Below, one piece after another: positions 5,841 through 28,206 of a stretch of 49,658 bases of DNA (its first letter is position 1; each line of letters starts with the position of its first letter). A program made the translations under genes and the position numbers. This stretch comes from Odoribacter sp. OttesenSCG-928-L07 (GTDB lineage Bacteria; Bacteroidota; Bacteroidia; Bacteroidales; BM520), in contig JAJDHA010000006.1 in assembly GCA_030265965.1 (NCBI GenBank), forward strand, positions 1-49,658, given 5' to 3'. A model generated the notes under the pieces. It did not search any database. It was given only the letters and a program-made list of their open reading frames with translations, and was not told the origin of the DNA.

Positions 5841-6461
5841 ATGTTAAATAAAATTAAGTATATATTATTTTTAGCTTTCATTATTTCTTCTATAGACATT
5901 AATGCGCAGGAAAATAATATTCTGGATAAAATATCAAAGACATCAGAAAATACTAAAACAATGCAATGTTCATTCACTCAGACAAAGAATATTAGTATTT
6001 TAGCTGAAGAATTTGTTTCGAAAGGATATATGTTTTTTTCAGCACCTGATAAGTTCAGATGGGAATATGCTTCGCCTTATGAATATATTTTTATCATGAA
6101 TGAAAAAGACATTAGCATAATAACAGAATCATCTCAAAATAATTTCAATACAGATCAGAATAAACTTTTCGCTGAGATAAGTAAGATTATGATTGTTGGT
6201 ATAAATGGAAGCGGCTTAGAAAAGAACGAAAGCTTTAATGTTGATTTACAGTCAGAAAATAACAATGAATACATTTTCAAATTAACTCCCAAACAAAAGG
6301 AAATAAAAAAGATATTTTCTTACATACTTCTAACATTTGACAACACATTTACTGTTTCCAAAATTGAAATGATTGAAGATACTGGAGACAATACGGTCAT
6401 CAAATTTTCTCCACGAATTATTAATGAACCTATTAATGATGAAGTTTTTAAAATTCGCTAA
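5841..6461 (+). CDS. LolA-like outer-membrane lipoprotein carrier protein
   Basis: A 206-residue periplasmic protein with a signal peptide ending near INAQ. The mature part has the LolA pattern: MQCSFTQTKNI near its start, GYMFFSAPDKFRWEY, and a C-terminal DNTVIKFSP region. LolA-fold proteins ferry hydrophobic cargo across the periplasm. Copies inside aryl polyene loci are thought to help move the polyene lipid to the outer membrane, working with the MMPL exporter encoded downstream. Its end overlaps the next gene by 23 bases, so the two are translationally linked. It is probably a pathway-specific paralog and not the housekeeping LolA. Confidence 0.82.
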   Translation: MLNKIKYILFLAFIISSIDINAQENNILDKISKTSENTKTMQCSFTQTKNISILAEEFVSKGYMFFSAPDKFRWEYASPYEYIFIMNEKDISIITESSQNNFNTDQNKLFAEISKIMIVGINGSGLEKNESFNVDLQSENNNEYIFKLTPKQKEIKKIFSYILLTFDNTFTVSKIEMIEDTGDNTVIKFSPRIINEPINDEVFKIR

Positions 6462-6910: not shown

Positions 6911-7696
6911 ATGTCTATAGAAAATAATTACTCAGATAGAAATGTTGAAAAGGAGCATGTTGATACAAAAGTTTGTATAATAATTCCAACTTACAATAAT
7001 TCGAAAACTTTAGCTAAGGTTATAGATTCTGTAAGTATCTACTCCACTCATATATATGTCGTAAACGATGGTTCAACCGACAACACTTCTGAGATTCTAA
7101 ATGACTATCATTCAAAGGTTTCAATTATTAATATTGAAAAAAATCGTGGTAAAGGTAATGCTTTAAAACAAGGTTTTAAAAGAGCATATCAAGATGGATA
7201 TGATTATGCAATTTCCATTGATTCCGACGATCAGCATGATGCGAAATACATACCTATGTTTTATAACGGCATAGCAAAAAATCCACATTCAATTATTATT
7301 GGTAGCCGCAATTTAAGTCAAGAAAACAAACCAACAAAAAATACTTTTGCGAACAAATTTTCTAATTTTTGGTTTAATTTGCAAACTTTGTCCAAAGTAA
7401 AAGACACTCAATCGGGATACAGAGCTTATCCTTTAAAAAAGATATCAAAAATGAAGCTAATAACAACTCGATATGAATGTGAGTTGGAAATACTTGTGAG
7501 AATGGCGTGGAAAAACACTAAAATTATTGAAATACCTATTGAGGCTTATTATGCACCTAAAGAAGAACGTGTTACACATTTTAGAAATGTGGATTTTTTA
7601 AGAATAAGTTTGATGAACACTTTGCTTACAATTCTTGCCTTAACATACGGATATTGGTCAATGTTAATTCTAAAGATATTCAAACATAATGGATAA
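6911..7696 (+). CDS. Glycosyltransferase family 2
   Basis: A 261-residue GT-A glycosyltransferase. Motifs in order: IIPTYNNSKTLAKVI, VVNDGSTDNT, NRGKGNALKQGFKRA and ISIDSDDQHD, the last giving the metal-binding acidic motif. A hydrophobic C-terminal stretch (about 235-255) suggests membrane association. This dolichol-phosphate-mannose-synthase-like type often uses a polyprenyl-phosphate or lipid acceptor. It may glycosylate the polyene lipid or its carrier. The stop overlaps the MMPL start by 8 bases. Confidence 0.88.
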   Translation: MSIENNYSDRNVEKEHVDTKVCIIIPTYNNSKTLAKVIDSVSIYSTHIYVVNDGSTDNTSEILNDYHSKVSIINIEKNRGKGNALKQGFKRAYQDGYDYAISIDSDDQHDAKYIPMFYNGIAKNPHSIIIGSRNLSQENKPTKNTFANKFSNFWFNLQTLSKVKDTQSGYRAYPLKKISKMKLITTRYECELEILVRMAWKNTKIIEIPIEAYYAPKEERVTHFRNVDFLRISLMNTLLTILALTYGYWSMLILKIFKHNG

Positions 7697-10600
7697 AATA
7701 TTTTCACTCATATATCAGTATTTTAACAAACATCGCAATATAATGATCATTGCATTGATTGTAATAACATTATTATCAGCTTTTTTCGCATCTAAGATTA
7801 AGTTTGATGAAGATATCTCCGGTTTTTTACCTAAAAGTAAAGAAACAGAAGATATCAATTTCATAATGAATAATATTGGTATTTCCGATAAGATAATTGT
7901 AAGAATAAGTGACAACAACAATGATATGGATGAGTTGGAAGATGCATCCGAAAGATTTGTTTACCTTGCTGATTCCATTATTGGTTCTGAACATATTTCA
8001 AAAATTTTCTATAAAGTCGATCAAAGTCTAATTTTTTCAGTTTCTGATTTCATAAGTTCAAATTTTCCTTATTTTCTTAATGATGATGATTACTCACATC
8101 TTGCTGAAAAAATCAGCAAAGAAAGTATCAATAAAACATTGGAAGGCAACAAACAATTACTAACTTCACCTATTGGTGCTGTTATGAAAAAGACTATCGT
8201 GAATGATCCTCTTCATTTTGCTACGCCGATATTACAGGACTTACAAAAATTTCAAATAAGTGATGAATTTATTAATATCGATGACTATATCTTTACAAAA
8301 AACGGAAAAGAACAAATTGTACTGATTACATCTACACATCCATCAAGCGAAACTGCACAGAACAAAATAATGATTACTAAACTCAAAGAATGTATCAAAA
8401 TTGTTAGCTCAGAGTTTGACGATAATATTTCAATAAGATATTTTGGTGCAGCAGATATTGCTGTTACAAATGCCAGCAGGATAAAAAAAGATTCAATCTT
8501 ATCAATAATCATAGCATCAATATTAATCATAGCCTTAATGATATATTTTTTCCGAAGATTCAACTCGATAGTTTTGATAATACTTCCGATAATCTTCGGT
8601 GGAATATTTTCTTTAGCAATGATGTATTTTTTCAAAGGAAATATTTCTGCAATTGCAATTGGTGCCGGTTCAATAATTTTCGGAATAGCAATAAATTATT
8701 CACTACATTATTTGGTTCATGTAAAATATGTTAGCAGTAATATTCAAGTAATCAAAGACATTTCCAGTCCTTTAATAATAGGTGGATTTACTACAATCGC
8801 CGCATTTCTAAGCTTAATATTTATCAGTTCAAAGTCAATGAGCGATTTTGGTTTATTTGCAGCATTTACACTTATAGGAACATCATTATTTGTTCTTATC
8901 TTCTTACCACATTTCCTTAGCAATAAAATATATTTAAAAAAGCAAAATAAAACTTTCCTTGAACGCATTTCTGAATATAATCTTCATCAGAACAAAGCAT
9001 TAATTGCATTCATAACTGTCATTACAATCATATTGCTATTCTTCACGCCTAAAACAACATTTGAAGGTGATATGAATGCAATAAATTATATGACAACTGA
9101 ACAAAAAACTAATTTTGAAGATTTTGCCGGAGTAACAAACATTTCAAAAACAAGTTTATACAATATATCTGAAGGGAAAAATTTAGATGACGCTTTATGC
9201 AAATATGAATCTAATATAGGAATTATAGATTCTTTGATTGTTAATGGTGACCTAAGCGGATATACTGGAATCAGAAACTTTCTCCCATCCAAGGAGATGC
9301 AAACTCATCGATTAAAAAAGTGGAATGAATTTCTCGCAGAACACAAGACTAATCTTACTGAAATCCTTGCTTCCGAATGCAAAGAAATTGGATTTAAAAC
9401 AGATGCTTTCAATAATTTCTTAAATACTTTAGATAAAAATTTCGAAATTCAAGACCCTGAGTATTTTTCCATTCTTATTGAAAACTTTCTCAAAGATTAT
9501 CTAATAAGCACAAAAGATAGATCTATGGTAATAAGCTTATTATATTCAGAACCGACAAAAGTTGAAAATATTAAAAGCGTTCTTGGCGGATTTACATTCG
9601 ATTCTGGGACTATGATGAGAAACATGATTAATACCTTGTCAAAAGACTTTGATTTTATTGTGTATATATGTGGAATAATTGTGTTCTTCTTTCTTATAAT
9701 TTCTTTTAAGCGAATTGAATTAAGTGTTATTGCATTTCTCCCAATGCTAATAAGTTGGGTTTGGATTTTGGGAATTATGGGTATTTTTGATATACGATTT
9801 AATATTGTTAACATAATACTTGCTACATTCATTTTTGGTTTAGGAGACGATTATACAATCTTTATTGTTGACGGTCTGATGAGCGAATATAGTTATGGCA
9901 AAAAGAAAGTTGATTCGTTTAAAAGCGCTGTAAGCTTATCAGCAATAACAATGTTTATTGGTATTGGGTCATTAATCATTGCAAAACATCCTGCAATGCA
10001 ATCATTGGCGCAAGTAACAATTATTGGAATGTTGTCTGTTGTGTTGATGGCTTTTGTTATCCCTCCAATTTTCTTTAATGCAATAACAAAAAAGAAAGGA
10101 AAAACAAGAAAAACACCAGTTACATTAACAAATTGGTTGGCGACTTTTGCTGCTTTCGTTTTTTTCTTATTCGGAAGTTTGTTTATTACAATTTCCGGTT
10201 TTTTCCTGCTAACAATTGGTGGAAAAACAGAAAAACATAAATTAAAATATCACAAATTACTTCAAAAGTTTTCAAAATTTTGCTTTGATAATCTCTTATT
10301 AAACAAAACAACACTTATTAATTATTACAAAGAAACTTTTGACAAGCAAGGAATTATCATATCAAATCATCAATCGCATCTTGATTTGATAATAATCATG
10401 ATGCTGAATCCCAAAATAATTATTTTAACTAATGAGTGGGTTTGGAAATCTCCATTTTATGGCATACTAATAAGATATGCAGATTACTTACCAATACATA
10501 ATGGCATAGAAGACAATGTGGATAAACTTAGACATCTGTACAATGCAGGATATTCTATAATGGTTTTTCCAGAAGGAACAAGATCTGAAGACTGCTCAAT

Positions 10601-11165
10601 ATTACGTTTCCACAAAGGCGCGTTCTATTTGGCAGAACAATTGAAAGCCGATATAATTCCAATATTAATTCACGGCGCCGGTCATACATTACCAAAATCT
10701 GAACTATTGCTAAGAAAAGGTAAGATTACTGTAGAAATATTAAACAGGATCTATTCTGCTAACCAAGAATATGGAAAAGATTATACTGAACGTACAAAAT
10801 CTATTCGCAAAATGTATATCAATGAATATCAAAGATTATCGAATGAAATTGAAACACCACAATATTTCCATAATTTAGTTATCGGAAATTACAAATACAA
10901 AGTTAATAATCTTGAAAACATTGTACGTAAACAATTAAAAGATAACAATAATTTTACTGAAGAAATCGCAAAGTTGCCAAAAAACGGCACAATCTGTATC
11001 GATAATTGTAATTACGGTGTTTACCCTTTAATTGCGGCATTAGTTAATAAAAATCTTCAAATTATTGCAACAGACAAAGATGATGACAAAGTACTAATTG
11101 CGCAAAATTGTGCATCAGTGCCAAAAAACCTCAGCTTTGTATTTAAAGACAGCGAGAGTAAGTAA
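7689..11165 (+). CDS. MMPL/RND exporter fused to an acyltransferase and a methyltransferase-like tail
   Basis: A 1158-residue fusion. Residues 1-800 form an RND/MMPL exporter: an N-terminal helix (about 17-35), a periplasmic loop, a helix bundle with GIAINYS at 332, then a second half with GLGDDYTIFIVDG from 717. Residues about 860-1060 are a PlsC-type lysophospholipid acyltransferase with HQSHLD at 894-899 (HX4D) and FPEGTR at 960. The last 65 residues look like the start of a Rossmann methyltransferase fold (ICIDNCNYG, IIATDKDDD) that stops early and lacks the glycine-rich loop. Acylation and export of the polyene lipid by one polypeptide is the natural reading. Confidence 0.88.
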   Translation: MDKIFSLIYQYFNKHRNIMIIALIVITLLSAFFASKIKFDEDISGFLPKSKETEDINFIMNNIGISDKIIVRISDNNNDMDELEDASERFVYLADSIIGSEHISKIFYKVDQSLIFSVSDFISSNFPYFLNDDDYSHLAEKISKESINKTLEGNKQLLTSPIGAVMKKTIVNDPLHFATPILQDLQKFQISDEFINIDDYIFTKNGKEQIVLITSTHPSSETAQNKIMITKLKECIKIVSSEFDDNISIRYFGAADIAVTNASRIKKDSILSIIIASILIIALMIYFFRRFNSIVLIILPIIFGGIFSLAMMYFFKGNISAIAIGAGSIIFGIAINYSLHYLVHVKYVSSNIQVIKDISSPLIIGGFTTIAAFLSLIFISSKSMSDFGLFAAFTLIGTSLFVLIFLPHFLSNKIYLKKQNKTFLERISEYNLHQNKALIAFITVITIILLFFTPKTTFEGDMNAINYMTTEQKTNFEDFAGVTNISKTSLYNISEGKNLDDALCKYESNIGIIDSLIVNGDLSGYTGIRNFLPSKEMQTHRLKKWNEFLAEHKTNLTEILASECKEIGFKTDAFNNFLNTLDKNFEIQDPEYFSILIENFLKDYLISTKDRSMVISLLYSEPTKVENIKSVLGGFTFDSGTMMRNMINTLSKDFDFIVYICGIIVFFFLIISFKRIELSVIAFLPMLISWVWILGIMGIFDIRFNIVNIILATFIFGLGDDYTIFIVDGLMSEYSYGKKKVDSFKSAVSLSAITMFIGIGSLIIAKHPAMQSLAQVTIIGMLSVVLMAFVIPPIFFNAITKKKGKTRKTPVTLTNWLATFAAFVFFLFGSLFITISGFFLLTIGGKTEKHKLKYHKLLQKFSKFCFDNLLLNKTTLINYYKETFDKQGIIISNHQSHLDLIIIMMLNPKIIILTNEWVWKSPFYGILIRYADYLPIHNGIEDNVDKLRHLYNAGYSIMVFPEGTRSEDCSILRFHKGAFYLAEQLKADIIPILIHGAGHTLPKSELLLRKGKITVEILNRIYSANQEYGKDYTERTKSIRKMYINEYQRLSNEIETPQYFHNLVIGNYKYKVNNLENIVRKQLKDNNNFTEEIAKLPKNGTICIDNCNYGVYPLIAALVNKNLQIIATDKDDDKVLIAQNCASVPKNLSFVFKDSESK

Positions 11166-11193: not shown

Positions 11194-12492
11194 ATGGATT
11201 TTTTACCTAAAATTGAACAAGAGCCCATTGATATAATAAAAAAATATCAAGATGAAAGATTAATCAAAAATTTGGAATATATAAATGCTAAATCAGACTA
11301 TTACAGAAATGTTTTTAGTAAAAACAAAATTGACATCAAAAAGATAAAATCTGTAGAAGACTTAAAACATATCCCTGTTACAAATAAAGAAGATTTGCAG
11401 TTATATAACAAAGATTTTATTTGCGTTGATAGCAGTAAAATTGTTGATTACATTACAACATCAGGCACTCTTAGCACTCCTACAACTTTTGCCATGACAG
11501 ACAAAGACCTCGACCGCTTAGCATATAATGAAGCCATTTCATTCATTTGTGCCGGAGGAAGTCAAAGTGATATTTATCAATTAATGACAACTATTGATAA
11601 AAGGTTTATGGCAGGACTTGCGTATTTTTTAGGCATCAGAATGATGGGAGCCGGCATTATTCGCGTTGGCAATGGAATGCCTGAATTACAGTGGGATACT
11701 ATTCAACGGATATCACCAACATCAATCATTTGTGTTCCTTCTTTTATTTTAAAAGTGATAAAATATGCTGAAGAACATAATATTGATTACAAAAATTCAA
11801 GCATTAAGAAAGCAATATGTATCGGTGAAAACTTGCGTAACGACGACTTCTCGCTCAATCTCTTAGGTTCCAAAATTAAAGAAAAATGGAATATCGATTT
11901 ATATTCAACTTACGCATCAACAGAAATGGGAACAAGTTTCTGTGAATGTCAAGAAGGGAAAGGCGGGCATCATCATCCCGAACTTATTATTTGTGAACTA
12001 TTGGATGAGAATGGCAATATAGTACCGGAAGGAGAATTCGGAGAACTAACAATCACAACATTAGGCGTTGAAGGAATGCCTTTACTTCGATTTAAAACAG
12101 GCGATATTGCAAGATTTCATTACGAGCCATGCAAATGCGGTAGAACTACTATAAGAATTAGTCCGATTATTGGACGAAAGAACCAAATGATAAAATATAA
12201 AGGAACAACCTTATATCCTGCTGCAATATTTGACATATTAGACAATATTGATTTTATAGAAAATTATGTTGTTATAGTTTCAGAAAATGAGCTTGGTACA
12301 GACGAACTTACAATTCGCATAGGTTGTCATATTCATGATAATAACACAATAAAAGAAGTTAAGGATTTCTTTCGAGCGAAGATTAGGGTTGCGCCGGAAA
12401 TAATTATTGACAGCATTGAAAATATTAGAAAACTTCAAGATCCTGAAAACAATCGGAAACCACGAAAATTTATTAACAATAAGAAGTCATAA
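11194..12492 (+). CDS. Adenylate-forming ligase, phenylacetate-CoA ligase (PaaK)-like
   Basis: A 432-residue ANL-superfamily enzyme of the PaaK type. It has the phosphate loop TTSGTLSTPTTF, the aromatic/Glu motif STYASTEMG, a Cys/His cluster (CECQEG then HHHPE) typical of PaaK relatives, RFKTGDIARF and CKCGRTTIRISPIIGRK before the C-terminal lid. It probably activates an aryl acid as the adenylate and loads it onto CoA or an ACP. With a tyrosine ammonia-lyase in the locus, 4-coumarate is the obvious candidate. About 190 bases separate it from the next gene, the only large gap within the first plus-strand block. Confidence 0.85.
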   Translation: MDFLPKIEQEPIDIIKKYQDERLIKNLEYINAKSDYYRNVFSKNKIDIKKIKSVEDLKHIPVTNKEDLQLYNKDFICVDSSKIVDYITTSGTLSTPTTFAMTDKDLDRLAYNEAISFICAGGSQSDIYQLMTTIDKRFMAGLAYFLGIRMMGAGIIRVGNGMPELQWDTIQRISPTSIICVPSFILKVIKYAEEHNIDYKNSSIKKAICIGENLRNDDFSLNLLGSKIKEKWNIDLYSTYASTEMGTSFCECQEGKGGHHHPELIICELLDENGNIVPEGEFGELTITTLGVEGMPLLRFKTGDIARFHYEPCKCGRTTIRISPIIGRKNQMIKYKGTTLYPAAIFDILDNIDFIENYVVIVSENELGTDELTIRIGCHIHDNNTIKEVKDFFRAKIRVAPEIIIDSIENIRKLQDPENNRKPRKFINNKKS

Positions 12493-14589: not shown

Positions 14590-15792
14590 ATGAGGAATAT
14601 CTTTGTTACCGGAATGGGAATTATTACCAGCTTGGGGATTGGGAAGGATAGGACTTTGCAAGCTCTGCAACAAAAAAAATCTTCCATTGGTGCCATGAAA
14701 TATCTTCAAACAACACATAACAATTTTCCCGTTGGCGAAGTTCAACTCAGCACTGATGAGATGGGTGATTTTCTAAATGTTCCCGACGGCACATATACAC
14801 GCACCGCATTACTTGGACGAATTGCGCTTAAAGAAGCTTTACAAGAATCCGAGATTAATGAGAAACGACCAAAACGTTTGGCTTTAATCTCTGGAACAAC
14901 TGTTGGTGGAATGGATAAAAGCGAAATTTTTTACAATGATTTTTTATCTGGCGATAAGCATACAGAATATATTGAAACTCATGACTGTGGTGCTACAACT
15001 GATTTAATTTCAAAAGAATACCAAGGGAAATTTGATGTCATTACCACAATTTCAACCGCATGTTCTTCTGCAGCCAATGCCGTAATCCTTGGTGCAAATC
15101 TTATTAAAACAGGTCGCGTTGATGCAGCTATAGTTGGTGGCAGTGAGTGTTTAAGCAAATTTCATCTCAACGGATTTAAAACCCTAATGATATTAGATTC
15201 AGAACACAACAAACCATTTGATAGAAATAGAAATGGTTTAAATCTTGGCGAAGGCGCTGCTTTTATCGTAATTGAGTCTGAAGAGTCTGTTAATGAACGT
15301 AATGTTAACCCAATCTGCAAACTATCAGGTTATGCAAATACATGCGATGCTTTTCATCAAACCGCCACTTCACCTAATGGAGAAGGCGCCTTTTTGGCTA
15401 TGGAAAAAGCAATACAAGAAAGCGGTTTAAAAAAGTCAGATATCGATTATATTAATGCACACGGTACTGGAACCGACAATAATGATTTAACAGAAGGAAT
15501 TGCAATAATGCGCGTTTTTGGAGATAAAATTCCTCCTGTATCATCAATTAAATCATTTACCGGTCATACTACTAGCGCAGCAGGAAGCGTCGAAAGCGTA
15601 ATATCTATCCTTGCTTTAAAACATAATTTTATTCCGGTTAATTTAAACTTCACCGAACAAATTGAAGAATTGTCTTTTAAACCTGCAACAGAGATGATTC
15701 CCAATAAAGATTTAAAACATGTTATCACCAACTCATTTGGTTTTGGAGGTAACGACTCATCATGTATTTTCTCCCAAATAGATTTATCATGA
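14590..15792 (+). CDS. Beta-ketoacyl-ACP synthase (KAS II type), elongating
   Basis: A 400-residue condensing enzyme with the full catalytic triad: Cys158 in STACSSAAN, His291 in NAHGTGTDNND and His326 in FTGHTTSAAG, plus the C-terminal NSFGFGGND. Length is typical for FabF. It catalyses decarboxylative Claisen condensation of malonyl-ACP with an acyl-ACP. Its stop codon overlaps the start of a Cys-less partner (ATGA), the classic layout of a KS/chain-length-factor heterodimer as in ApeO/ApeC-like pairs, so this is probably the polyene-building KS. Confidence 0.92.
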   Translation: MRNIFVTGMGIITSLGIGKDRTLQALQQKKSSIGAMKYLQTTHNNFPVGEVQLSTDEMGDFLNVPDGTYTRTALLGRIALKEALQESEINEKRPKRLALISGTTVGGMDKSEIFYNDFLSGDKHTEYIETHDCGATTDLISKEYQGKFDVITTISTACSSAANAVILGANLIKTGRVDAAIVGGSECLSKFHLNGFKTLMILDSEHNKPFDRNRNGLNLGEGAAFIVIESEESVNERNVNPICKLSGYANTCDAFHQTATSPNGEGAFLAMEKAIQESGLKKSDIDYINAHGTGTDNNDLTEGIAIMRVFGDKIPPVSSIKSFTGHTTSAAGSVESVISILALKHNFIPVNLNFTEQIEELSFKPATEMIPNKDLKHVITNSFGFGGNDSSCIFSQIDLS

Positions 15793-16859
15793 GCATATAT
15801 ATAAATTCAATAGCACATATTTCTATTCAAGAACCGATGTCAGAAAATTGGTTTCACTCCCCTATTATGTATCGTGAAAATTATGTGCGTTCAATAGAAC
15901 CTGACTATTCTGCATTTATTCCAATGATGACCGCTCGCAGAATGGGACTCGTAATGAAAAGAGCAATTGCAACTGCATTAAAAACTATAAGAGAAACAGG
16001 AATCGAAAATCCTGACGCAATTATCACCGGCACAGGGCTCGGTTGTATAGAAAATACCGAAAAGTTTTTAATCGCAATGATTGAAAACAATGAAGAGTTG
16101 CTCCCACCAACAGCATTTATGCAATCGACACATAATACTATCGGATCTCAAATTGCAGTTTTCTTAAAATGCAACGGATATAACAGCACATATTCTCATC
16201 GAGGTACATCTTTCGATAGCGCTTTATTTGATGCCGTAATGCAATTTGAGTTAGAAAAAATTTCTTCAGCTTTAATAAACTCTCATGATGAAATGACTCC
16301 AAATTATTTCAAATTATTAAGTAAATTAAATTATTGGAAAGAAGGTGAAATTTCAGAAGAAGTGTTAAGAGATGGGAAATCAAAAGGTTCATTCTCCAGC
16401 GAAGCGTCGGTAAGTTTTATGTTGGAAAACTCAAAGTCTAAAAATACAATTTGTGAGTTAAAAGGCATGGAGATGATGTATGAACCGGATATCGAACAAA
16501 TAGAGGTTTGCCTTAACAAAATATTACGACGAAACAATCTGAACATCAACAATATAAACGCAGTAGTTGTTGGAGTAAGCGGGGATAAAGATAACGACGA
16601 TATTTACACAGAATTATTATCATCTATTTTACCTCAAAAACCCGTTGTTTGGTATAAACATATTTTTGGGGAATCTTATTCTGCTTCCGGATTGGGAATG
16701 TATGTTGCTGCAACAATTTTAAAAAAAGGGATTTTACCTAAACATCTTTTATATAGCAAAACATGCACGGATGCATCAACTCCACAAAACATATTGGTAT
16801 ATAATCATTTTCAAAACAAAGATCATTCATTGGTTTTATTATCATCATGTAACAATTAA
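15789..16859 (+). CDS. Chain-length-factor-like beta-ketoacyl synthase partner, no active-site Cys
   Basis: A 356-residue thiolase-fold protein from the ATG at 15789, which overlaps the KS stop as ATGA; the in-frame ATG 27 bases upstream lies inside the KS gene and is unlikely. The fold is recognisable from MTARRMGLVMKRAI, ITGTGLGCIENTE and STHNTIGSQIA. Where a KS has its Cys loop this protein has SHRGTSFDSAL, with no Cys. This matches the 'beta-ketoacyl synthase chain length factor' family of aryl polyene loci. It would dimerise with the upstream KS and set chain length without catalysing condensation. Confidence 0.85.
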   Translation: MSIYINSIAHISIQEPMSENWFHSPIMYRENYVRSIEPDYSAFIPMMTARRMGLVMKRAIATALKTIRETGIENPDAIITGTGLGCIENTEKFLIAMIENNEELLPPTAFMQSTHNTIGSQIAVFLKCNGYNSTYSHRGTSFDSALFDAVMQFELEKISSALINSHDEMTPNYFKLLSKLNYWKEGEISEEVLRDGKSKGSFSSEASVSFMLENSKSKNTICELKGMEMMYEPDIEQIEVCLNKILRRNNLNINNINAVVVGVSGDKDNDDIYTELLSSILPQKPVVWYKHIFGESYSASGLGMYVAATILKKGILPKHLLYSKTCTDASTPQNILVYNHFQNKDHSLVLLSSCNN

Positions 16860-23337: not shown

Positions 23338-24882
23338 ATGAACACAATAAACATCAGCAATTCTATTAATATCAATACATTTGAAGATATTATATTAAGA
23401 AACAAAAAAGTTTGCATTGAAAAAAACATTTTAGATGAAGTAAATAATTCATATCATTTTTTAGAAAGTTTTTCAAAAGACAAATTGATTTATGGCATCA
23501 ATACAGGCTTAGGACCTATGGCTCAATACAGAATTAGTGATGAAAAACGCATTGAATTACAATACAATCTTATTAGGAGTCATGCGGCAGGTACAGGGAA
23601 GCATTTGAGAAAAGATTTTGTAAAAGCAGGTATGTTGTGTCGTTTAGTAAATATTTTACAAGCAAAATCAGGCGTTCATGTTGAATGCGCAGAATTACTT
23701 CGTGATTTTATTAACAATGATATTATTCCCGTCATTTTTGAACATGGTGGCGTTGGGGCTAGTGGAGATTTGGTTCAACTGGCGCATCTTGCATTAGCAA
23801 TGATTGGTGAAGGCAATGTATATTACAGAGATGAACTGATGCCTGCGGCTGATGCAATGAAACAATGCGGTCTATCACCTATTAAAATGAGAATAAGAGA
23901 AGGATTATCATTGATAAACGGAACATCAATAATGACAGGGATTTCTATTGTAAATTTGCTTTATGCCAAGAAACTATTTCAACTTTCGGTGATGGCATCA
24001 TCAATGATAAATGAAGTTGTTGAATCTTATAGCGATTCCTTCTCCAAAGAATTGAATCAAACCAAATTGCATAAAGGGCAGAATGTTGTCGCAGGAATAA
24101 TGAGAGAAATTTTGAAAGATAGTTCTTTGATTAAACAAAGAGAAAGCACTTTATACAATCAACAAGTTACGGAAAATGTTATTAAAGAAAAAGTTCAAGA
24201 ATATTACTCCATACGTTGTGTTCCTCAAATATTAGGACCAATAAGTGATGCTATTGAGAATGCCGAGATACTTATTATTAATGAAGCAAATTCTGTAAAT
24301 GATAATCCTGTGGTAGATAAAGATTCGCAGAATGTTTATCATGGCGGAAATTTTCATGGCGATTACGTATCTTTTGAAATGGACAAACTCAAAACCGCAA
24401 TCACCAAACTAACAATGATTAACGAGCGCCAATTAAACTATTTGCTTAATCCTAATCTTAATCAGAAGCTTCCTCCATTTGTAAATCTTGGAGTAAAAGG
24501 ACTGAATCTGGGCTTGCAAGCAGCACAATTTACTGCGACATCAACAACTGCTGAATGTCAAACATTATCATTTCCTAATTATGTACATTCCATCCCAAAC
24601 AATAACGATAATCAAGATATCGTCAGTATGGGAACAAACTCAGCCTTAATTACAAACAAGATTATTGAAAACGCATACGAAGTTCTGTCTATTCATTATA
24701 TTGCTCTACTTCAAGCTATAGACTTTTGTAAAAATCAAAATAAAATGTCATCATCAACTAAAAAGACTTACGAAGAATTAAGGGAAATTATTCCTGTTTT
24801 CCATGAAGATGATGCAATGTATATAAAGGTGAATAAAATGAAAGATTATCTTATTGACATAAAAGATAAAAAACAGAATTAA
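23338..24882 (+). CDS. Tyrosine ammonia-lyase (aromatic amino acid lyase)
   Basis: A 514-residue aromatic amino acid lyase. The MIO cofactor triad Ala141-Ser142-Gly143 lies in GGVGASGDLVQLAHLAL. Other family blocks are YGINTGLGPMAQY, NLIRSHAAGTG (Ser81-His82), FHGDYVSFEMDKL and NNNDNQDIVSMG. The Ser-His pair at the selectivity site resembles histidine lyases, but as I recall it the characterised Flavobacterium johnsoniae tyrosine lyase of the flexirubin locus has the same RSH context and is alike throughout. With FabG, ketosynthases and a ligase around it, deamination of tyrosine to 4-coumarate as aryl starter is the best reading; histidine catabolism is unlikely because no hut genes are present. 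Confidence 0.88.
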   Translation: MNTINISNSININTFEDIILRNKKVCIEKNILDEVNNSYHFLESFSKDKLIYGINTGLGPMAQYRISDEKRIELQYNLIRSHAAGTGKHLRKDFVKAGMLCRLVNILQAKSGVHVECAELLRDFINNDIIPVIFEHGGVGASGDLVQLAHLALAMIGEGNVYYRDELMPAADAMKQCGLSPIKMRIREGLSLINGTSIMTGISIVNLLYAKKLFQLSVMASSMINEVVESYSDSFSKELNQTKLHKGQNVVAGIMREILKDSSLIKQRESTLYNQQVTENVIKEKVQEYYSIRCVPQILGPISDAIENAEILIINEANSVNDNPVVDKDSQNVYHGGNFHGDYVSFEMDKLKTAITKLTMINERQLNYLLNPNLNQKLPPFVNLGVKGLNLGLQAAQFTATSTTAECQTLSFPNYVHSIPNNNDNQDIVSMGTNSALITNKIIENAYEVLSIHYIALLQAIDFCKNQNKMSSSTKKTYEELREIIPVFHEDDAMYIKVNKMKDYLIDIKDKKQN

Positions 24883-26847: not shown

Positions 26848-28206
26848 ATGGCAAATGTTTTATTAATAGCAGCAAACAACTACAAAGACCCCTATCCCGT
26901 ATATCCTCTCGGTGTAGCATATTTGAGTAAATATCTAAAAACTCATCTGCCTAATGATATAATTTCGGAGTTTGATTTTAACTTGCAGTCGTACGAAAAC
27001 TTGAAATCTTTACTTCAAAAACAAACTTTTGATATTATTGGAATATCTTTAAGAAATATTGACGACACAAATATTTTTGCAAAAAATTCATTTATTGAAC
27101 ACTATAAAAGAATCAACGATATTGTTCGTTCTCTTTCTAAATCTAAAATAATTTTGGGCGGCTCGGGATTTTCCATCTTTCCTGAAATAATTTTTCAAGA
27201 GTTAAACCCTGATTACGCAATACATGGAGAAGGTGAAGATTCTCTTTTGCAACTTATTAATGCCATAAAAAATCAGGAAGACACGCAAAACATTCCTGGT
27301 TTGGTTTTTTACAATAAGCTTTCAAATTCAATCAAAATTAATGAAAAAGGAAATTACATAGACAAACCTGAATTGGAAATTGGGAAAAATGAGGCTGAAT
27401 ATTATTGGAATGAAAGCGGAATGTTAAACATTCAAACCAAAAGAGGTTGTCCATACAACTGTATTTATTGCAGCTATCCGATTATTGATGGTAAAAAAGT
27501 TCGTACACTCGAACCTCAAAAGGTTTTAGAAAACATTATTCATTTAAACAAAACTTTAGGAATAAATTATCTGTTTTTCACCGATTCTATATTCAACATT
27601 AACAATGAATACAACAATAAACTTTGCAACTTAATTATTGACAGCAAGCTAAATATTAGTTGGGGTGCATATTTTTCGCCTAATAATCTAACTTATGAAG
27701 ATTTAAAACTATACAAACAAGCAGGTTTAACGCATATAGAATTTGGCACAGACTCATTATCCGACACACAATTAAGAAATTACCAGAAGAATTTTACTTT
27801 TGAAGATATTTAAAGAGCAAGCAATTATTGTTACGATTTGGGAATTTTTTATGCACATTTTCTGATTTTATGTGGTTTTTGCGAAACTGAGGATACTTTG
27901 AAAGAAACTTTTGAAAATTCAAAAAAAATTGAGCATTCTGTTTTTTTCCCTTACGTTGGAATGAGGATTTACCCAAAAACAAAACTTTGTGAAATTGCCA
28001 TCAAGGAAGGAATAATTACAAATGTTGACGAGCTTATCAATCCTATTTATTATGTAGCTAAAAGCGTTGATATTAATAAACTTGAGATGATGGCAAATGA
28101 AACCGGGAAAAAATGGATTTTCCCAAATTCTGAAGTTGATCCTATGATGTGTAAACTTAGACAGCGAGGAAGAAAAGGTCCTTTGTGGGAATACTTACGA
28201 TATTAA
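26848..28206 (+). pseudogene. B12-binding radical SAM protein interrupted by an in-frame stop
   Basis: The reading frame encodes about 451 residues with one TAA at 27811-27813 (codon 322). Upstream is a cobalamin-type domain (MANVLLIAANNYKDPYPVYP, FDIIGISLRN, ILGGSGFSIFP, YAIHGEGED) and a radical SAM core with Cys201, Cys205 and Cys208 (KRGCPYNCIYC). Downstream the same frame continues with YAHFLILCGFCETEDTL, typical of the end of such enzymes, so nothing but the stop breaks it. One base change from TTA, AAA or CAA gives TAA. It resembles the lipid-biosynthesis/ladderane-associated B12 radical SAM family. I see no usable restart codon just after the stop. It could be a recent null allele or an assembly error. 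Confidence 0.82.

Follow-up and report, generated by a model that had tools for sequence, protein, structure and literature searches.

A truncated methyltransferase domain retained on an exporter–acyltransferase fusion in Odoribacter

The window analysed here, 49,658 nucleotides of contig JAJDHA010000006.1 of Odoribacter sp. OttesenSCG-928-L07 (genome bin of 1.67 Mb, 74% complete), holds a gene that joins an exporter of the MMPL family to a PlsC-type acyltransferase and ends in what looks like the beginning of a methyltransferase. This raises the question of why a domain that breaks off ahead of its catalytic part is kept at the end of a membrane protein. Our data indicate that the tail is, by descent, the N-terminal half of a class I S-adenosylmethionine (SAM) methyltransferase. 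We consider it probable that this half is a non-catalytic module of a lipid exporter, kept by selection in a structural or docking role.

Domain make-up of the fusion and origin of its tail

The gene is a single open frame of 1158 amino acids (aa) on the forward strand (7689..11165; ATG at 7689, TAA at 11163-11165), single-copy in the genome bin barring one weak match (25%). It encodes, in this order, an MMPL exporter, a PlsC acyltransferase and the methyltransferase-like tail, an architecture already proposed by the first-pass annotation and with which open frame, Pfam matches and motif positions agree. Specifically, the exporter part (residues 1-815, boundary approximate; 7689..10133, +) matches Pfam MMPL (PF03176) in two stretches (3.3e-10, 39.9 bits against a gathering score of 20.5), which identifies it as an MMPL/RND exporter, and its relatives in the PDB are the HpnN hopanoid RND transporter structures 5khn and 6wu0. 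The window protein belongs to the same exporter family as HpnN and lies far below the cut-off of the NCBIfam HpnN equivalog (90 bits against 751.85). To our knowledge, HpnN has no acyltransferase or methyltransferase domain.

The acyltransferase core (residues 885-994; 10341..10670, +) matches PF01553 (6e-20, 71.8 bits against 23) and PlsC in PDB 5kym (1.6e-14; fold Z 24.7). Both catalytic motifs are intact, HX4D as HQSHLD (residues 894-899; 10368..10385, +), with H and D invariant, and FPEGTR (residues 960-965; 10566..10583, +), with P, E and R invariant, the catalytic residues being unchanged in all 58 rows aligned. Family match and motifs together identify a PlsC-like lysophospholipid acyltransferase, which scores 65 bits against the curated cut-off of 102.95 for TIGR00530 (1-acylglycerol-3-phosphate acyltransferase).

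The tail (residues 1053-1158; 10845..11162, +) of the window protein, taken alone, is matched by no Pfam methyltransferase family. Following profile comparison by hhalign, a profile of 33 tails from the clade of the window protein (the half clade) matched one built from 36 complete tails (99.5% probability), with columns 1-108 of the half profile aligning to columns 2-109 of the 233 in the complete domain. Structure prediction, proposed as a check in the first-pass annotation, returned a confident beta-alpha-beta-alpha-beta model with AlphaFold2 (predicted local distance difference test, pLDDT, 85.4 for the tail alone, and mostly 94-96 for the tail in a PlsC-plus-tail model with a predicted template modelling score of 0.87), to be read with the reservation that the input alignments contain complete methyltransferases, which could favour a methyltransferase fold. 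VIA-align matched the tail to many class I methyltransferases (Z 10.2 to 6.5). Searching the PDB by sequence with the half profile yielded only weak matches (best E 0.012), in part methyltransferases, and Foldseek with the half-domain reached a best E-value of 0.014. From the hhalign and VIA-align matches to complete domains we conclude that the tail has the class I methyltransferase fold and is the N-terminal half of such an enzyme; the same two comparisons rule out an unrelated fold. The methyltransferase origin suggested earlier therefore stands, while the length given then, about 65 residues, does not: it is about 105 once the helical lead-in (Y-K-G motif), which is part of the domain, is counted.

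The elements that this half retains, all on the forward strand, start with the lead-in Y-x-Y-K motif common to full and half forms (NYKYK, residues 1067-1071; 10887..10901), whose Y1070 and K1071 occur in 100% of 23 non-redundant half-clade rows and 95% of 41 full rows. In the model, beta1 (residues 1100-1105; 10986..11003) and beta2 (residues 1123-1129; 11055..11075) follow, and a clade signature, C-x3-P-x-N-L, together with beta3 (11106..11144), is the final conserved element ahead of the stop. Two features of an active class I methyltransferase are missing from the window protein. In place of motif I (D/E-x-G-x-G; D-x-G-C-G in the complete forms), beta1 leads into a degenerate I-D-N-C-N, and the frame stops after beta3, without the beta4-beta7 half and its D-x-L-H-Y. 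A recent frameshift or assembly error is ruled out as the cause of this early end, because the next gene starts 28 bases after the stop and the same-genus homologues L003 and L004 (54% identity) end at the same place.

Loss of catalysis and constraint on the remaining half

Homologues were collected through searches of relatives, the order and the phylum together with a scan of named contigs, and 103 rows entered the tree; the named relatives of the fusion come from Bacteroidales/Bacteroidia draft genomes and share 40-43% identity with it. Duplicates (L103, L104, L107) and a row at a contig end (L101) were dropped before counting, frames without PlsC (L089-L093, L099, L100) were handled apart from the counts, and L065, also at a contig end, stands in the tree and outside the counts; about 28 further search matches (most of 1278-1312 aa) and one match from another search stand outside the tree. 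The homologues fall into two classes, proteins of about 1270-1340 aa with a complete methyltransferase (Pfam Methyltransf_31, 1.8e-14 and 4.2e-15 in the two checked) and shorter, early-ending forms. D-x-G-C-G is kept by all 43 rows whose tails extend 214-229 residues past position 1056 and by none of the 58 whose tails measure 95-175 residues, three of which have G-C-G without the D; one row of the 103 is without any tail. Our label "full" combines motif and length, and length alone yields the identical split.

In the tree built on MMPL and PlsC columns, the window protein falls in a 34-row clade (Shimodaira–Hasegawa-like approximate likelihood ratio test, SH-aLRT, 100) that contains no full form. 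A second clade without full forms comprises 23 rows, labelled Flavobacteriia from their kinship class and gene type, and L086 and L088 are single further non-full cases, so that the tree holds four state changes overall. In a rooted tree of MMPL columns, with L091-L093 as near outgroups, the half clade is nested inside paraphyletic full forms, a placement of limited weight as the root, Escherichia coli ApeM, sits on a long branch. Because of this nesting, we regard the full form as ancestral and catalysis as lost. This bears out the earlier idea of a once longer three-part protein, and the search for homologues with a complete C-terminal methyltransferase, suggested along with it, found one in 43 of the 103 analysed rows. 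The opposite outcome envisaged then, homologues that all end alike with an unrelated fold for the tail, was not observed; the members of the window clade end near the same place, with a methyltransferase fold.

A split methyltransferase, in which another protein supplies the missing C-terminal half, would fit the presence of a first half only, confidently folded in the model. However, the SAM motif I is gone, and a profile of the C-terminal half found no convincing match in 20 half-clade genomes (two weak partial matches of 38-40 residues, 6e-4 and 8e-4) or in 4 Flavobacteriia, while all 3 control genomes gave E below 1e-42; we consider such an enzyme highly improbable. Replacement of the fused domain by a separate ApeB-type methyltransferase is also unsupported, as there is no clean complementarity. 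ApeB homologues occur whether or not a fused methyltransferase is present: 20 of 27 half-clade genomes have one, as do 22 of 39 full ones, 2 of 12 Flavobacteriia and the genomes of both L086 and L088. These counts exclude 4 full genomes, 11 Flavobacteriia and the named contigs L032-L038. None was found in the window's own bin, 74% complete, or in two same-genus genomes.

The tail had been described as vestigial in the first-pass annotation, with a small domain put to a new use as the other option. Over residues 1096-1150, six disjoint close half-clade pairs showed 33 non-synonymous and 76 synonymous differences, giving a pN/pS of 0.129 (binomial p 5e-25 against neutrality), compared to 0.084 for MMPL and 0.076 for PlsC; in five Flavobacteriia pairs the tail value was 0.151, all these ratios being without multiple-hit correction and some pairs near saturation. 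Among the 23 non-redundant half rows, median pairwise identity is 37% for the tail core, 40% for MMPL and 42% for PlsC. In addition, the columns A1117, L1118, C1141, P1145, N1147 and L1148 show 87-96% conservation in these rows, against no more than 51% in the 41 full rows. Since clade-specific columns are conserved and core identity is near that of MMPL and PlsC, constraint on the half has been re-set, not simply lost. Judged by these substitution patterns, the half-methyltransferase is under purifying selection and not vestigial; the same selection and conservation, together with its survival after loss of the neighbouring domain described below, favour the new use.

The half could still be a passive remnant, slowly eroding and kept since further shortening of the C-terminus would make the PlsC helix ahead of it unstable. 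Tail lengths that grade from complete to none, and a tail pN/pS about twice that of MMPL and PlsC, agree with such a remnant, which we nonetheless find unlikely: neutrality would predict about eight times as many non-synonymous changes, the residues conserved specifically in the clade sit at the distal end of the half, and the half stays where PlsC has gone.

Rearranged exporters and the possible role of the half

This last point rests on natural rearrangements. L089 (G239, 950 aa) and L090 (G061, 946 aa), both placed inside the half clade in the tree, are without PlsC and carry the half directly on MMPL (44.7 and 41.2 bits). In G239, a separate 719-aa GT2-PlsC protein (L175:1979-4135), encoded in the same cluster as the MMPL-half protein, also bears the half (59 bits). 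Altogether, the half goes with the exporter more than with the acyltransferase and, in G239, where the two are split, with each of them. When 393 genomes of the order were scanned with the half profile, 103 gave matches. Among those whose frames were not obviously fusion-type, the ones opened comprised the GT2-PlsC-half protein of G239, PlsC-methyltransferase frames with partial MMPL (G173, G393, G053), contig-edge pieces (G192, G335) and, in G162, a probably broken 179-aa frame that closely follows an MMPL-PlsC frame. No free-standing half was recognised in this opened set.

Outside the half clade, L091-L093 are frames of about 1000 aa in which MMPL is joined straight to a pseudo-methyltransferase of about 160 aa, without PlsC. 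They represent a second exporter type, which in L091 and L092 has an ApeK-like thioesterase on one side and a CrtI-like gene on the other, in genomes that also hold the three-part gene or its half form.

Several observations weigh against a general requirement for the half. The PlsC of G061 sits in a GT2-PlsC fusion without it, L007, a half-clade member, has PlsC but no tail, and the MMPL relatives L099 and L100 are without both PlsC and the half; because L007, L099 and L100 lost it, the half is dispensable in some lineages. It also evolves about 1.5-2 times faster than the remaining protein, which indicates that part of it is under relaxed constraint.

We prefer a docking or assembly role, mainly because the half follows the exporter, and both split partners in G239. 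The fusion would serve an aryl-polyene (flexirubin-like) lipid pathway as its export station in the inner membrane. Going by the cluster and the protein families, PlsC would acylate a lipid acceptor at the cytoplasmic face, and MMPL would pass the product on towards LolA-type carriers. The ancestor also bore a complete class I methyltransferase; in the window clade the catalytic half has been deleted and the SAM site has decayed, the lead-in helices and beta1-alphaA-beta2-alphaB-beta3 being retained and probably re-tuned as a non-catalytic module. The data show the origin of this module, its loss of catalytic parts, continuing selection on it and its persistence on the exporter. It may act through protein–protein contacts: the C-terminus could pack against PlsC and the exporter, or protomers or pathway partners could dock at the beta1 edge, the former pairing place of beta4. 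A more specific version, which we put forward only tentatively, is that the half-domains are self-associating assembly modules: the loss of beta4-beta7 would free a beta1 edge in each, and two such edges would come together in a sheet of six strands, linking exporter protomers to one another or, once split as in G239, the acyltransferase to the exporter.

Half-Rossmann folds frequently bind nucleotides, and the loop that follows beta1 has an invariant glycine, G1110, as might be expected if the half were a ligand sensor, gating the exporter upon binding of a nucleotide or a lipid in place of SAM. Such a sensor seems quite improbable, as the acidic residue after beta1 is lost, the one ending beta2 is down to 52%, and no other kind of binding motif was recognised.

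Pigment cluster and known systems

The fusion gene appears, from its neighbours, to sit in an aryl-polyene/flexirubin-type pigment cluster. A GT2 glycosyltransferase gene (6911..7696, +; PF00535), found directly upstream in most clusters, overlaps it by 8 bases, a LolA-like carrier gene lies at 5841..6461 (+; PF03548, 5.7e-18), and the next downstream gene encodes an AMP-binding (PaaK-like) ligase (11194..12492, +; PF00501). Further neighbours in the window are a ketosynthase plus chain-length-factor-like pair (14590..16859, +; PF00109/PF02801, PF13723), acyl carrier proteins (Pfam matches) and an ammonia-lyase-like gene (23338-24882), named from its translation with no family search behind the name. 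The assignment is based on type II ketosynthases, acyl carrier proteins, LolA, GT2, ammonia lyase and acyl ligase occurring together, and passages of PMC8253772 and PMC3992019 describe such neighbours for aryl-polyene/flexirubin clusters.

The window GT2 is without the C-terminal DUF2062 present in three tested GT2s of full-form/Flavobacteriia clusters, and short GT2s mark the window clade, with one exception by length (L058). A coupling of DUF2062 loss to methyltransferase loss is ruled out, as the former is a trait of the window clade only, and Flavobacteriia, L086 and L088 have long GT2s. A B12-binding radical SAM frame (26848-27813) measures 321 aa in the window as against 477 aa in the homologue L146:186-1616, and the window copy seems to be without the C-terminal third. 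Pigment clusters also hold fusion-length frames of ketosynthase type (785 and 736 aa; L038:3042-5396, L144:5098-7305) and of CrtI type (about 1000 aa; L143:11772-14786, L144:12868-15852).

The complete MMPL-PlsC-class I methyltransferase fusions found in pigment clusters of Bacteroidota (L009, L053, L106 and others) have the same domain order, methyltransferase lead-in included, and the same neighbours LolA, GT2 and CrtI-like; motif I, D-x-L-H-Y and the rest of the domain are all present in them (tails of 214-229 aa), whereas the window clade has only the first 105 residues or so. Presumably, these are the proteins that RefSeq names "trifunctional MMPL family transporter/lysophospholipid acyltransferase/class I SAM-dependent methyltransferase". 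As outlined in part of PMC8253772, the aryl polyene cluster of E. coli has the steps that the fusion would join in three separate genes: apeM codes for the RND transporter, apeD for the acyltransferase and apeB for the methyltransferase. The E. coli ApeB falls in the Methyltransf_2 family and contains a dimerisation domain, an architecture unlike that of the fused methyltransferase. Dead methyltransferases in lipid enzymes are already known: sections of PMC10764717 and PMC10258763 describe the pseudo-methyltransferase of animal fatty acid synthase as structurally important and catalytically inactive. The two cases are alike in that a multidomain lipid enzyme has retained a dead methyltransferase; they differ in the protein concerned, in fold context and in origin, and in the window protein the domain is cut after beta3 and its host is an exporter. 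In the literature searched, we found no paper on an MMPL-PlsC-methyltransferase fusion, nor a repeated, selected retention of the first methyltransferase half on an exporter.

In conclusion, catalysis has been lost from an enzyme domain about four times within this one protein family, a clear case that includes intermediates, and the first half of the domain is kept by selection. As far as the relevant part of PMC8253772 goes, the scheme for aryl-polyene lipid acylation and export is only proposed, and a small defined module on the exporter would offer a testable handle. If the half-domains do self-associate, a dead enzyme would have been turned into a coupling device, handing the lipid pigment from acyl transfer to export.

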